DNA of 29,910 bases from a virus: IMG/VR virus record IMGVR_UViG_3300042563_002292, positions 1-29,910 of that record. One strand, 5' to 3'. Positions 3,935 through 29,773 of the stretch are shown here, piece by piece. A program made the position numbers and the translations under genes. Position 1 is the stretch's first letter. The number at the start of each line of letters is the position of its first letter. Under the pieces are notes generated by a model that had not been told where the DNA came from, ran no database searches, and worked only from the letters and a program-made list of their open reading frames with translations.

Positions 3935-5923
3935 ATGACCGCCTCTGACAGAATCAAAGGTGCGAGGAACTATCTCGCCAAACTTCCACCAGCGGTATCC
4001 GGGCAAGGCGGACACCCAGCGACCTATCGGGCAGCCAGCATTCTGGCGCACGGATTTGAACTGGGATGGGACGACGCCTGGGCATTGCTTCAGGAATGGA
4101 ATATGTCCCATTGCTCACCTCCTTGGGGCGAGAAGGATCTTCGTCACAAGCTGAACGATGCCTACGTCAAGCCCCACGAACGCCCGAAGGGTTGGCTGTC
4201 CGGGCGTGAGCGAGCGGTAGGCTCTAATGGAAGGATGATGTTCGACCCGAAGAGAATTGCCGAGGTTGCATTTGGCTCCGTGTCGATGACGACCGCCGAC
4301 CTTCTGCTGGCTGCCTTCAAGGACGACGAGGTGGTCTGCATCACGAACGAGGCCGGTCAGAATGAAGACGGCAAGTACTTCCCGGCGTCAAAGGGTAACT
4401 TTCTCACGCGCGCCGAGTGGATCAAGCGGTTCTTCGGCCCTGACGCCAAGGGTAAGTCCTATTACGAAAGCGAAGATCAGGGAGCCTGGCTCCGCATCAA
4501 TCCGTTCAAGCCGGACGACTTCACCGGGACGGACACATCGGTGTCTTCATATCGCCACGTCTTGGTCGAGTTCGACAAGAAGAACAGGGAGGAGCAGATT
4601 GCTATCTTCCACCAGTCCAATCTTCCCATCACGGCGCTCATCGACTCCGGCGGTAAGTCCGTCCACGCTTGGGTTCGGGTGGATGCCGAGACCAAGGAGC
4701 AATGGGAGGAACGCCGTAATACGGTGTATGACTTCCTTGGAGATCACGAACCAGACCCCCAGAATAAAAACCCATCCCGCTGGTCTCGCCTAGGCGGGGT
4801 GATGCGTGGAGAGAAAGAGCAGAAGGTTCTGGCGCTCAAGGTCGGTGCGGAGGACTGGGACGCTTGGGTAATCTGGCGTGACGGTCACGACCTGCCCGAC
4901 GAGCTGCGAACGGACTTCCTTGAGACCTACGACACCCAGCACGACCCGAACCACGTCATCGGTCACGGACGCTGGCTGTGCCGTGGGGGTAGCCTTCTTA
5001 TCACCGGCCAGTCTGGTATCGGTAAGTCTTCCTTCACGATGCAGACCGCCTGTTCTTGGGCGCTAGGTCGTGAACTATTCGGCATCCCGGTGAAGCGCGC
5101 CCTCAAGGTCGGCGTCATCCAGGCTGAGTGCGATGTCGGCGACCTTGCCGAGTCCTATCAAGGGGTGACCTCTGCTATGAACTTGTCCAAGGATGACAAG
5201 GCGCTCCTGCGTGAGAACCTCCGCTTCTTCACCGAGACCACCAAGACCGGGAAGGACTTCGCAGACCTCGTCCGCAAGATTGTGGTTCGGATGCAACTTG
5301 ATGTCATCTTCTGCGATCCGCTGCTCTCCTATGTCGGCGGTGACCTATCCAAGCAGGAGGTGGCTTCCCATTTCCTCCGCAACCTTATCCAGCCCATCCT
5401 CAAGGACACCGGGTGCATCATCGTTTTCACCCACCACGAAGGTAAGCCGAAGCCCAAGGAGGTCACGGAGGGGCAGACTATCAGCGATATGGCATATTCC
5501 GGGCTTGGGAGTTCCGAACTCGTAAACTGGGCCAGAGCGATTATCAACGTCCGCCGGGAGTCCAAGGACTATCCCATCTTCTCGTTCAACCTTACCAAGC
5601 GTGGCAAGTTGGCGGGGATGCGGATGCCGGACGGCAAGCCTACCCTGTCCATCAAGTTGCGCCACGCCGAGGGCAAGGTGCTGTGGGAGGTCGCACCCCT
5701 GTCCTCCAAGTTTGAACTCCTCAAGGTCGGGGAGCAGTACGCCCACTTCGCCTCCAAGCCGTCCACCAGCCGGGGGGCGCTGATCAAGGAGCTGGAGACC
5801 GACTATGGTCTGAACCAAGACCAGGCACAGGCGGTCATCAAGGCTATGGTCACCAATGGCATCCTTACGCCTAAAAAGGTGGGAGCGACCCTGTTTTACT
5901 CTGGAACGACCCCCTCAGAATGA
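3935..5923 (+). CDS. Primase-polymerase/RepA-type helicase fusion
   Basis: A 662-residue multidomain replication protein. Residues 1-80 form a small helical domain (AVSGQGGHPATYRAA and PPWGEKDLRHKL) often found at the front of phage and mobile-element primases. Residues about 205-295 resemble the archaeo-eukaryotic primase fold: VEFD at 211-214, SGGKSVHAWVRVD at 238-250 with the S-x-H motif, and PSRWSRLGGVMRG at 280-292. Residues about 345-600 are a RecA-like ATPase of the RepA/DnaB-related class: Walker A GQSGIGKSS at 358-366, Walker B LDVIFCDP at 455-462 and THHEGK at 499-504. The last 60 residues look like a winged helix. It likely primes and unwinds phage DNA. The usual first acidic residue of the primase motif is Glu here instead of Asp. 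Confidence 0.85.
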   Translation: MTASDRIKGARNYLAKLPPAVSGQGGHPATYRAASILAHGFELGWDDAWALLQEWNMSHCSPPWGEKDLRHKLNDAYVKPHERPKGWLSGRERAVGSNGRMMFDPKRIAEVAFGSVSMTTADLLLAAFKDDEVVCITNEAGQNEDGKYFPASKGNFLTRAEWIKRFFGPDAKGKSYYESEDQGAWLRINPFKPDDFTGTDTSVSSYRHVLVEFDKKNREEQIAIFHQSNLPITALIDSGGKSVHAWVRVDAETKEQWEERRNTVYDFLGDHEPDPQNKNPSRWSRLGGVMRGEKEQKVLALKVGAEDWDAWVIWRDGHDLPDELRTDFLETYDTQHDPNHVIGHGRWLCRGGSLLITGQSGIGKSSFTMQTACSWALGRELFGIPVKRALKVGVIQAECDVGDLAESYQGVTSAMNLSKDDKALLRENLRFFTETTKTGKDFADLVRKIVVRMQLDVIFCDPLLSYVGGDLSKQEVASHFLRNLIQPILKDTGCIIVFTHHEGKPKPKEVTEGQTISDMAYSGLGSSELVNWARAIINVRRESKDYPIFSFNLTKRGKLAGMRMPDGKPTLSIKLRHAEGKVLWEVAPLSSKFELLKVGEQYAHFASKPSTSRGALIKELETDYGLNQDQAQAVIKAMVTNGILTPKKVGATLFYSGTTPSE

Positions 5924-17828: not shown

Positions 17829-18725
17829 TTACGCGAAGGTGATCTTCTGGAGCGCGTCCGGGTTGCCCTTGCCAGAACCGATGAGCCAGTTGGCGGAGAG
17901 CTTGTGGAGACCAGCCGACCAGTCGTACCAGTAGCGGAGAGCGTAGGAGAACTGGCTGTCCGGGTCGGTCACGATGGTCTGTTCGCCACCACCAGTCGTG
18001 GGGGCAGCAGGAACGCGGGTCACGACGACGAGACCTTCCTTGCAGGAGACCACGCCGTTGAGGCCGGCTTCAAGACCAGCAGCGTCGAAGCCGTTGTACT
18101 CGTAGAAGTCGATGCCGTGGATCATACCGAGGCGGTTGCCACGGATGACGTCGGAAGTACCGATGGAGAACGCCTGGGCGATCACCGGGTCGGAGATGAG
18201 CTGCTGGTAGGCGTCGGGGGAGACGAGGGCAGCGCGACCTTCCTGCGGGAGGTTGGCGAGCGTAAGGCTCTTGGCGATGTTGGAGACGGCGATACGGTTG
18301 AAGCCGGACTGAGCGCCATCGTAACCGGCCTCGAAATCGCCATCGACCTTGGTGAGAACCTGGTCGAAGAGGGACTTGACGACGGCGTTAGCCATCGGAG
18401 CCATAAAGAGGCGACGGAGGCGTTCGAGCGACAGGGTAGCCACTTCGTAGTCGGTGAAAGCGACGGTGACGTGCTTCTGGTCGACGAGGGTCACCGGGAC
18501 ATCCGTCGAGACGGCGTCGGATTCGACGAAGCCAGTCGCGCGGTTGTAGTTCTGGGCGGTGAACTTCCCGGCGTAGCGGGTGTGAACGGTCGTACCGCGC
18601 TCGGCGACATAAGCGCCGAAGTCGGTAACCGCGATTTTGGTCAGAGGAGCGAGCTGCGGAACGAGCGTCCGCAGGGACTCTTCAGCCACGAGCTGGAGGG
18701 TCAAGCCTCCGATAGCGTTAGACAT
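17829..18725 (-). CDS. Major capsid protein
   Basis: A 298-residue protein that would form the icosahedral shell, with an HK97-type fold. The text VPVTLVDQKHVTVAFTDYEV, then LSLERLRRLFMAPMANAVVK, resembles the E-loop and spine-helix region of P22-like and related coat proteins; the P-domain/A-domain text (GRAALVSPDAYQQLISDP) is also typical. It follows the scaffold gene and precedes head-tail genes. Few rare features: 298 residues is standard. The 30-base leader has no Shine-Dalgarno, which is striking for the most abundant virion protein; it may be translated by coupling with the scaffold gene. Transcription likely ends at the two hairpins after it. Confidence 0.85.
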   Translation of the reverse strand: MSNAIGGLTLQLVAEESLRTLVPQLAPLTKIAVTDFGAYVAERGTTVHTRYAGKFTAQNYNRATGFVESDAVSTDVPVTLVDQKHVTVAFTDYEVATLSLERLRRLFMAPMANAVVKSLFDQVLTKVDGDFEAGYDGAQSGFNRIAVSNIAKSLTLANLPQEGRAALVSPDAYQQLISDPVIAQAFSIGTSDVIRGNRLGMIHGIDFYEYNGFDAAGLEAGLNGVVSCKEGLVVVTRVPAAPTTGGGEQTIVTDPDSQFSYALRYWYDWSAGLHKLSANWLIGSGKGNPDALQKITFA

Positions 18726-18755
18726 AGTAGTGTTTTAGGGTTTGAGGTGGAAAGA

Positions 18756-19217
18756 TTAGCGAAGACCAGCGAGGCGCATCAGAGCGCTCTTGTTGAGGTC
18801 GTAGAACTTCTGGGCGGCCTTGGCATCGGACTTCTTGAGGACAGCCCACTCTTGGGCGATTTCTTCGTCCGTCTTGCTGGAGGCAGACGCTTCGATGGGG
18901 GCGACTTCGACAGGATCAACGCCGACAGAGGCAGCAATCTTGGCGGCCTTTTTGCCAGCCGTTTCAAACGAAGCTTCCAGGGCGAGGTACTTCTTGCCGG
19001 CCTCGGCAAGGGCGGTTTCGAGTTCGGTGACCTTGGCAGCCATCTTCTCGATAGCCGAAACGGAGTCGGCGAGCTTGGAGGCAAACTCGGTCAGTTCGGC
19101 TTCCTTCGACTCAAGGGCTTCCTTGGTCTTGGTAAGTTCGACGGACGAGGCTTCAGCTTCAGCGGCCTTCCCGGTGAAGGCTTCCTTGAGCGAATTAAGG
19201 CGTTCTTCGATGGTCAT
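18756..19217 (-). CDS. Scaffold-like coiled-coil protein
   Basis: A 153-residue protein that is almost entirely helical, with Glu, Lys and Ala heptads (KTKEALESKEAELTEFASKL, VTELETALAEAGKKYLALEA). The C-terminus is compact and basic (AAQKFYDLNKSALMRLAGLR), the part that in scaffolds contacts the coat protein. It lies between the S49 protease and the major capsid gene, the standard place for a scaffold that the protease later removes. Copy C of the intergenic element precedes it by 15 bases. No domain beyond coiled coil is claimed. Confidence 0.75.
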   Translation of the reverse strand: MTIEERLNSLKEAFTGKAAEAEASSVELTKTKEALESKEAELTEFASKLADSVSAIEKMAAKVTELETALAEAGKKYLALEASFETAGKKAAKIAASVGVDPVEVAPIEASASSKTDEEIAQEWAVLKKSDAKAAQKFYDLNKSALMRLAGLR

Positions 19218-27623: not shown

Positions 27624-27860
27624 TTAGATGTTTCCGGCTTCGCTCTCGATCTCCAGCGAAGCGACCAGCAGGTCGATTTGATCGGCTCCGGCTCGCTCCA
27701 TATAGAAGGCCATAAGAGCGTCGGCGAGTTTGTTAGCCTTCGCCTCCAGGCTCTCAGCCTTGGCCGGTCGGTTTGCGAGCTCGGCGTGGAAGGCCTGATT
27801 GAACAGGCGGAGCGAACGCTGTTCCAGCGCTTCGATTTGATCTTCGGTAGGGTTGAACAT
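27624..27860 (-). CDS. Small helical protein, first gene of the orphan operon
   Basis: A 78-residue, fully helical protein with Glu/Ala/Leu-rich text (EDQIEALEQRSLRLFNQAFH, AESLEAKANKLADALMAFYM). Starts with GACTATG and no Shine-Dalgarno. It is the promoter-proximal gene of the leftward set and faces the symmetric region at 27861-28492. Similar in style to the 28493 gene that diverges from the other side. Function unknown. Confidence 0.55.
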   Translation of the reverse strand: MFNPTEDQIEALEQRSLRLFNQAFHAELANRPAKAESLEAKANKLADALMAFYMERAGADQIDLLVASLEIESEAGNI

Positions 27861-27969
27861 AGTCGGCTAGGTGTAGGGAGAAGTGTGGAGCCTGACAGGC
27901 TCCAGGCAAGCGTCTTCCCAATCTTTTTAGCAAAATCTTTTGCCAGGGTTTGGATCAGGCGAACCGGGA

Positions 27970-27986
27970 AGCCGGAGCCGTGCCAA
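27970..27986 (+). repeat. Outer inverted repeat, left arm
   Basis: AGCCGGAGCCGTGCCAA. The exact complement lies at 28410-28426. A shorter 13-base direct copy is at 28227-28239, and CGTGCCAAGT recurs at 28158-28167. Confidence 0.8.
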
Positions 27987-28070
27987 GTGACCGGGCAGCC
28001 GAAAGATTTTTCGCGGAATTTTTCCGGCGCTTCCGGGTCGCTTAAAGGTGTTTTATCAAAATGCCTTGGC

Positions 28071-28087
28071 GAGCCTCCCAGGCCCCT
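28071..28087 (+). repeat. Inner inverted repeat, left arm
   Basis: GAGCCTCCCAGGCCCCT, complement of 28334-28350. Similarity continues outside the core with mismatches (CAAAA-x-G-x-CT on one side, CGCA on the other), so the ancestral repeat was about 45 bases. Confidence 0.8.
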
Positions 28088-28157
28088 AGGATCGCATTTT
28101 TCATTTCCGAAGGGTAAGGTAGCCACGACTTGAGGATTTTGGGGGGTGTACTGAAGT

Positions 28158-28239
28158 CGTGCCAAGTCGTCGCCGGGTCGTCGGAAAGTTTATAATATTT
28201 ATATGATCAATTTCCGGTCATATTCAGGAGCCGTGCCAA
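28158..28239 (+). repeat. Central direct copies of the GTGCCAA word
   Basis: CGTGCCAAGT at 28158-28167 and GGAGCCGTGCCAA at 28227-28239 flank the AT-rich core. They repeat part of the outer inverted repeat, giving four copies of GTGCCAA in 460 bases. Confidence 0.7.
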
Positions 28240-28259
28240 AGTCCCCGGCTGTCAGTAAA

Positions 28260-28284
28260 TTTGACAAAATGTCTCTATGTCAAA
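28260..28284. promoter_or_regulatory. TTTGACA inverted pair, possible operator
   Basis: TTTGACA at 28260-28266 and TGTCAAA at 28278-28284 form a 7-bp dyad with an 11-base spacer. More TTTGACA words occur at 28379-28385 and 28454-28460. They could be repressor sites or -35 boxes; no matching -10 was found at 17 bases. Confidence 0.45.
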
Positions 28285-28333
28285 ATCCTCAAAAGTGAAG
28301 GGTAGTATATGCCTTTTTTGAATTTGCGTTTTA

Positions 28334-28350
28334 AGGGGCCTGGGAGGCTC
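28334..28350 (-). repeat. Inner inverted repeat, right arm
   Basis: AGGGGCCTGGGAGGCTC, exact complement of 28071-28087; both arms face the AT-rich core near 28200. Confidence 0.8.
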
Positions 28351-28409
28351 CTGGAGCCGTTTTGTTTTATTATACATTTTTGACACTTTTTCGGTGATCC
28401 TCCGAGAGT

Positions 28410-28426
28410 TTGGCACGGCTCCGGCT
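28410..28426 (-). repeat. Outer inverted repeat, right arm
   Basis: TTGGCACGGCTCCGGCT, exact complement of 27970-27986. Confidence 0.8.
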
Positions 28427-28492
28427 ACGCGCACGCTCGCCCCCATCAAATAGTTTGACAGGGAGGCCGGCAGCCGAACGCTCTCCTATGCA

Positions 28493-28897
28493 ATGAATAC
28501 ACCCTACCAGTCACCGCTCGCTCAGGCTTTCCGCCTGGCTGAGAAGATCAACCTACGCTCCGGGAACGCTCTCCAGCAGTCCCAGGCTCTCCTGAAGATC
28601 ACAACGCCGGGACGCTTGCTACGCTCCGACCGCATCGCTCTCGACTATGTCGCTCGATCCGCCGACGAAGCCCAGGCTTCGGCTTGTGAGCTAGAGAAGA
28701 TCCTCGCCGACGCTCTCCCCTTGCTCGCCGACTACCAGGCGGCCGTCGAGCGTCAGGTCGCCGAGCTCGAAAGGGCCGCAACCTGTTGCGACACCTACAC
28801 GACGACCAGCGCACGACTTGAGAAGGCAGCCAACGCGAAAGCCGAGGCAGCCGTCGCTCTCGCCGAGTATCTCACTAACATCCGCCCGACGCTCTAA
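28493..28897 (+). CDS. Helical protein of unknown function
   Basis: A 134-residue protein, almost entirely alpha-helical and Ala/Leu/Glu-rich (RSADEAQASACELEKILADA, AAVERQVAELERAATCCDTY). A coiled coil at about 55-125 is likely. The ATG at 28493 has no close Shine-Dalgarno (AGGGAGG is 27 bases upstream). First gene of the rightward set, diverging from the 27860 gene. Stop is one base before the next ATG. Function unknown. Confidence 0.6.
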   Translation: MNTPYQSPLAQAFRLAEKINLRSGNALQQSQALLKITTPGRLLRSDRIALDYVARSADEAQASACELEKILADALPLLADYQAAVERQVAELERAATCCDTYTTTSARLEKAANAKAEAAVALAEYLTNIRPTL

Positions 28898-28898
28898 T

Positions 28899-29027
28899 AT
28901 GATCCTCCCCTTCTTCGAACCGAACCTCGACGGACTGACGAACGACGACCTGGCGGTCGTCGCCGTCGTCGCCTGGTTCGTCGTGGCGCTTCTCGCTCTC
29001 GCTCACTTCACCAGCATCCGCAAATGA
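28899..29027 (+). CDS. 42-residue single-pass membrane protein
   Basis: The ATG at 28899 follows the preceding stop by one base. An acidic N-terminus (PNLDGLTNDD) leads into one strong membrane helix at about 19-37 (AVVAVVAWFVVALLALAHF) and a short basic end (TSIRK). A longer in-frame start at 28818 would only add text from inside the previous gene. The stop overlaps the next gene in ATGA. It may anchor a partner at the membrane; role unknown. Confidence 0.6.
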   Translation: MILPFFEPNLDGLTNDDLAVVAVVAWFVVALLALAHFTSIRK

Positions 29028-29773
29028 TCACGGAAAAATTCCACGTTACCCCTAAGTCTTCCAACGCGAAGACCGGGGATATCGTCGTGACGACTTCGAC
29101 GGCGACGACCTGTCCCCCGGCGTGTCCCCTCAAGAAAGAATGCTACGCTAAGAGCGGCCCGCTCGCTCTCCATTGGGGAGCCGTGACGAAGGGCAGCCGA
29201 GGCTCGACCTGGGAGCCGTTCCTCGACGACCTGGAGCGAGCCGTGCGCAAGGCTCCAGCCGGCCAAGTGTGGAGGCTGAACCAGGCGGGCGACCTACCAG
29301 GCTCCGGCAACACGATTGACGGCTTCCGGCTTCTCGACCTGGTGCGCCTGAACGCTCGCTCCGGCGGTCGTGGCTTCACCTACACGCACAAGCCGATCCT
29401 GGCAGCCGACGCTCTCCCAGGCTCATCCGGCGTTTCCGACCTGAACCTTGCGCTGATCCGTCACGCGAACCGGGCCGGCTTCACCGTCAACCTTTCGGCT
29501 AACAGCCTGGAACACGCCGACCGCATTATCGACACGACCTGGCGAACCGGGGGCCGGCTCCCGGTCGTCGTCTTGCTCCCTTCCGACGCTCCGGCGAGCC
29601 TGGTAACCCCAGGCGGTCGCCGGGTCGTCACCTGTCCTGCCCAGTTACGCGAAGGGGTCACCTGCAAAACCTGTCGGCTCTGTAGCCGATCCGACCGCTC
29701 AGTCGTCGTCGGCTTCCGGGCGCACGGCTCCCAGGCTAAGGGGGCGAGCCGGATAGCCCAGGCGACCGCCTGA
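29024..29773 (+). CDS. Cysteine-cluster protein of unknown function (widespread phage/plasmid family)
   Basis: A 249-residue protein. Two cysteine groups stand out: Cys30, Cys34 and Cys40 (TTCPPACPLKKECYAKSG), and Cys204 with Cys214-x2-Cys217-x2-Cys220. Between them are conserved-looking blocks: RLNQAGDLPGSGN at 84-96, GRGFTYTHKP at 115-124 and FTVNLSANSLEHADRI at 153-168, ending with VVVGFRAHGSQAK. From memory this matches an uncharacterised family found in phages and plasmids. The first cluster is of the kind that can bind an iron-sulphur centre, as in radical-SAM-like proteins and the phage Gp37/Gp68 group, but the spacing is C-x3-C-x5-C, not the canonical C-x3-C-x2-C. Metal binding is inference. 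Coupled to the membrane peptide gene by ATGA. Confidence 0.75.
   Translation: MITEKFHVTPKSSNAKTGDIVVTTSTATTCPPACPLKKECYAKSGPLALHWGAVTKGSRGSTWEPFLDDLERAVRKAPAGQVWRLNQAGDLPGSGNTIDGFRLLDLVRLNARSGGRGFTYTHKPILAADALPGSSGVSDLNLALIRHANRAGFTVNLSANSLEHADRIIDTTWRTGGRLPVVVLLPSDAPASLVTPGGRRVVTCPAQLREGVTCKTCRLCSRSDRSVVVGFRAHGSQAKGASRIAQATA

Follow-up and report, generated by a model that had tools for sequence, protein, structure and literature searches.

The non-coding gap between the two diverging gene sets of this phage is, on balance, probably a divergent control region made of sigma-54-type promoters, driven by the RpoN of the host and probably by a host activator. The window, i.e. the whole stretch of DNA analysed, is a 29,910-base IMG/VR virus record and a genome fragment; judged from its relative G016, in which about 8.6 kb separate the DUF7227 gene from the homologue of window position 12, it is without about 8.6 kb of its genome. 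A codon-usage gene finder delimits a divergent gap of 632 bp (27861-28492) between leftward genes (to 27860) and rightward genes (from 28493) and makes no gene call within it, in agreement with the first-pass annotation, which had described a gap that codes for nothing and splits leftward from rightward gene sets. This control region is placed between leftward small genes, followed by a putative cos site and by packaging and structural genes, and a rightward operon. Homologues of terminase, portal, protease, capsid and tail genes are found among the leftward genes. A cytosine methyltransferase and a primase-helicase are encoded rightward, to which G016 adds a Holliday junction resolvase, a RecT-like protein, an exonuclease VIII, a DEAD helicase and a weak match to a single-strand binding protein. 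The first leftward gene (27624..27860, minus strand, 78 aa) has no PHROG match and the first rightward gene (28493..28897, plus strand, 134 aa) has no Pfam or PHROG match, while the DUF7227 protein (29024..29773, plus strand) has a homologue right of the gap in both G002 and G016.

The gap is dominated by nested repeats. The two perfect 17-bp inverted repeats reported earlier are exact (27970-27986/28410-28426 and 28071-28087/28334-28350), have nearly common centres (about 28198 and 28210), as had been claimed; no other exact inverted repeat reaches 17 bp anywhere in the 29,910 bases of the window. In the 632-bp gap, inverted-repeat words number 16, 9 and 2 at lengths of 12, 14 and 17 bases, compared to means of 0.03, 0 and 0 in first-order Markov sequences of this gap. 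A third nested pair, of 12 bp, had been overlooked: it is composed of TTGAGGATTTTG (28130..28141, plus strand) and CAAAATCCTCAA (28281..28292, plus strand), the latter located within an 82-bp block that the window shares with G002 at 89% identity. The AT-rich string described at the centre of the repeats, TTTATAATATTTATATG, is found at 28189-28205, between two inner copies of the 8-bp block TTGGCACG, and the further GTGCCAA copies said to flank this core are present at 27980, 28159 and 28233, with TTGGCAC at 28410. The extended form TTGGCACGN6G, with a G seven bases downstream, has exactly four exact matches in the window, all four in the gap. The left and right halves of the gap have two upstream elements in common, in equal order, whose distances to the promoter differ by 25-26 bp between the halves. 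The gap can therefore be described as two back-to-back copies of one promoter unit, which explains why the inner repeats are nested. The strong single-strand DNA fold of the region (z -6.3) is a trivial consequence of the inverted repeats, and neither structured RNA nor tRNA was found in the window. A perfect palindrome, GGAGCCTGACAGGCTCC, is also present at 27887-27903, where the leader of the leftward transcript is predicted.

Sigma-54 (RpoN) is an alternative bacterial transcription factor, whose promoters remain shut until an activator is triggered. Both outer arms, TTGGCACGGCTCCGGCT, have the GG-N10-GC form of sigma-54-type -24/-12 elements and face outward into the flanking operons, leftward at 27970..27986 (minus strand) and rightward at 28410..28426 (plus strand). 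The corresponding transcription starts are predicted at about 27959 and about 28437, respectively. The published sigma-54 consensus is TGGCAC-N5-7-TTGCT (PMC12316311), with conserved GG and TGC elements (PMC3844500). When scored against TGGCACG-N4-TTGCW, the outer arms reach 10/12 and are the best two such sites in the window. As random sequence contains about 1.5 sites of score 10 per 29.9 kb, this score alone is not significant, and the weight rests on position, orientation, offset specificity and recurrence or conservation. At the equivalent position on its left side, G016 carries a 12/12 consensus site, TGGCACGACCCTTGCT, of a kind found 0 times in 80 random 29.9-kb sequences. Only weak sigma-70 matches were returned by the promoter scan (3 found vs 0.9 expected). 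TTGGCA as a sigma-70 -35 element was ruled out, no consensus-like -10 being present 17 bp downstream of the outer arms.

Many relatives of the phage were retrieved by terminase searches, among which only three, G002, G016 and G008, were found to have the motif as well as sequence across the whole gap. Their gaps, of 481 bp (G002, L021/L075), 614 bp (G016, L040/L076) and 735 bp (G008, L030), each contain outward-facing copies of TTGGCACG; the comparison with relatives proposed in the first-pass annotation thus shows that the repeats recur in three of them, and the elements, their orientation and their spacing are conserved in four phages. The arms are identical within one genome and different between genomes. 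In more distant phage relatives the motif is missing, some of them having a long divergent gap, as in L170, where about 200 bp of alternating CA/CG repeats are observed (reverse complement 18347-19171). Pattern scans of viral contigs for further motif-bearing relatives returned the known relatives and unrelated single matches only, and annotated phage records gave no DNA match to the gap.

The alignment of the TTGGCACG copies of the four phages reveals an offset specificity. A G is present at offset 14, i.e. position -13 in the -12 box, in all 12 copies, which are not fully independent, the four phages being related and the two arms of the window identical. This G is followed by a C, giving GC at -12, in 7 of the 12 copies, all outermost and outward-facing; GC at -12 is absent from the five others (the inner copies and both rightward G016 copies), and GC at any other offset occurs in at most 4 of the 12. 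The GG and GC of sigma-54 promoters are accordingly found in both outer arms and in 7 of the 8 outermost copies of the four phages, and not in the inner copies. Since neither rightward copy of G016 has GC at -12, only the left side of that phage fits sigma-54. The two inner copies of the window (28151..28165 and 28225..28239, both on the minus strand) have the G at -13 and no C at -12. Inner copies thus keep the 8-bp block without the GC, as the site of a non-sigma protein might.

Candidate activator sites are found between the promoters. The inner 17-bp arms could be upstream activator elements. Relative to the start predicted on its own side, the left arm (28071..28087, minus strand, AGGGGCCTGGGAGGCTC read leftward) lies about 112-128 bp upstream and the right arm (28334..28350, plus strand) about 87-103 bp upstream. 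Sites of sigma-54 activators are often located about 70-150 bp upstream (PMC3844500). In G002, the block overlapping 28071..28087 is found at an unchanged distance from the promoter. As an independent argument for a constraint between promoter and enhancer, this constant spacer length is weakened, the spacer itself being 45% identical vs 25-28% in the null. A second class of element is the palindrome GTCAA-N5-TTGAC, which has, with at most one mismatch, 11 matches in the 2,585 bp of the four phage gaps; GTCAA/TTGAC at the other spacings from 0 to 12 has 0-2 matches each in the same gaps. In the window, this class comprises an operator candidate, GTCAGTAAATTTGAC (28251..28265), and a second dyad, ATCAAATAGTTTGAC (28445..28459), which falls in the leader predicted for the right transcript. 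The N5 dyads occur on either side of the presumed promoters, and those downstream of the predicted starts suit a repressor better than an enhancer.

These elements suggest the following mechanism. The outer arms would act as opposed -24/-12 promoters that serve the leftward small-gene operon and the rightward replication and recombination operon, respectively, and the RpoN RNA polymerase of the host would bind each of them as a closed complex. An enhancer-binding activator would bind the interior, at the inner inverted repeats and/or at the GTCAA-N5-TTGAC palindromes, and would open both promoters simultaneously by looping. Neither a sigma-54 activator gene (PF00158) nor an RpoN gene was found in the phage records searched. 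The activator is therefore probably a host protein, a conclusion tempered by the missing phage sequence.

The main alternative is that the TTGGCACG copies and the palindromes form an array of operators for a phage repressor or activator, superimposed on divergent promoters of the usual type, which the housekeeping sigma factor of the host would recognise; the sigma-54 likeness would then be coincidental. We regard it as unlikely, though as a serious competitor. It would account for the presence of TTGGCACG copies at several positions, the inner ones without GC at -12, for the dyads on both sides of the presumed promoters, and for arms that are alike within a genome and differ between genomes, as if they tracked the specificity of a regulator. 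However, sigma-70 promoter-like sites are few, the G is invariant at the exact position of the -12 box with GC enriched only there, and no gene confined to the motif-bearing phages emerged as a candidate regulator. The bidirectional operator, one of the two functions suggested for the gap in the first-pass annotation, is well supported by the repeats in three relatives and by outer arms that look like divergent promoters toward both gene sets.

The sigma-54 reading implies a host with RpoN. A distant-profile terminase search of 84,980 cellular genomes gave 63 loci, 61 of which are titled Verrucomicrobiota, one Bacteroidales and one Planctomycetaceae; an earlier, narrower terminase scan of cellular genomes had given no relative, these being found by the broader profile. 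From these terminase relatives, which are 24-42% identical, we infer that the host belongs to the Verrucomicrobiota. RpoN is encoded in 22 of the 23 searched Verrucomicrobiota genomes with related terminases, that is, in relatives of the presumed actual host. Sites of the same form are native to the phylum: TTGGCACG-N5-YGCT has 230 matches in 115 Verrucomicrobiota genomes, compared to 62 when one extra base is inserted (3.7 times). Among 420 7-mers of the same composition, GGTCAAA is the top one upstream of 71 native sites, with 13 occurrences there and 0 downstream. A native divergent identical pair, TTGGCACGGTTTTTGCT, is located at a type III glutamine synthetase gene (L301, G136:C41, 2825-2966).

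Three Verrucomicrobiota islands, L302 (G136:C86), L304 (G139:C5) and L361 (G077:C11), were also observed to hold an RtcR/PspF-like activator (PF00158), 62% identical between L302 and L361, together with several TTGGCACG-N5-YGCT promoters and GTCAA-N3-TTGAC palindromes. In L302 and L304, GmrSD nucleases and other defence-like genes are found near the activator. These islands are candidates for a sigma-54-controlled defence regulon. They share with the phage gaps the promoter form and the GTCAA/TTGAC half-site, but the half-sites are 5 bases apart in the phages and 3 in the islands, where 11 matches are found at N3 and 0 at N5. The idea that phage and island palindromes are one identical site was rejected on this difference, which indicates that the binding proteins are probably related rather than identical. 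It is a rather doubtful extension of the sigma-54 reading that, in a lineage of Verrucomicrobiota phages, both divergent operons, including the replication genes, could be under the control of host sigma-54 and of a host activator related to the one of the defence-like islands. If so, a host circuit that senses infection or stress would turn the phage on.

Compared to known systems, the gap resembles sigma-54 promoters, such as those of glutamine synthetase, by its TGGCACG block, its GG-N10-GC spacing, the absence of -35/-10 elements in place, and the palindromic or repeated elements found upstream of the phage promoters at a typical distance. Divergent identical pairs also occur among the native Verrucomicrobiota sites of sigma-54 form. 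Unlike typical sigma-54 promoters, those predicted in the phage have a central divergent location, and the -12 box of the window arms is CGGC instead of the consensus TTGC, which counts against sigma-54. The lambda-type pL/pR region comprises two divergent operons with shared operators. The phage gap is alike in having two divergent operons with the same sites inverted. It differs from lambda in its promoter elements, which are not of the sigma-70 type, and in the lack of any repressor gene found between the two promoters. Phages usually use the housekeeping sigma factor first, and we know of no case in which sigma-54 is the main phage switch. In the open-access literature, with subscription journals largely outside, no paper on phage operons under sigma-54 promoters was found; as these journals are largely missing, this is weak evidence of novelty. 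Central promoters of the sigma-54 class would make the phage dependent on the signalling state of its host. If this is true, infection that depends on the host state would become open to testing, and a phage promoter would be tied to the control of defence-like islands in a phylum that has received little study.

The gap had also been proposed to be a replication origin with initiator sites, a claim that is unsupported by our results and that we consider improbable. The TTGGCACG copies would then be iterons around an AT-rich unwinding element, an arrangement that could coexist with promoters. The window does have repeats on both sides of an AT-rich core, and so does G016, where a comparable core lies between two direct TTGGCACG copies, but G002 has no such core. 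The core is found in both orientations relative to the genes, which would be tolerable for an origin. The GC-skew check suggested earlier does give a change of sign here in three phages; nevertheless, this flip is explained by gene direction, since the third codon position is C-rich in nearly all genes on both strands, and the cumulative skew at the gap is a maximum, not a minimum. Furthermore, no DnaA box (TTATNCACA, at most one mismatch) is present in 27861-28492, which leaves room for a phage-specific initiator, and the primase-helicase gene is far off (3935-5923).

Finally, the core of the G016 gap (L076 2673-3286) has the opposite orientation to that of the window and of G002, the flanking genes keeping theirs (match of 78 bp, 83%, opposite strands, E 5e-20). 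It is very improbable that a segment switches orientation by recombination at the outer repeats, even though the arms are homogenised within genomes: the inversion is seen between phages only, one old inversion by homologous recombination accounts for the data, and no match to a serine resolvase/invertase (PF00239) or a tyrosine integrase (PF00589) was found in ten phage records, of which several are incomplete.

Beside the gap, a contig end shared by many relatives was observed at window 25913/25914, about 1.9 kb upstream of the terminase gene. It could alternatively be due to an assembly break at a G-run, but looks like a natural cos-type genome end. The contigs with this common end (L015-L018, L020, L023, L029, L032 and L034) start with GGGCG, GGCGG or GGGTG and adjoin a G-rich run.
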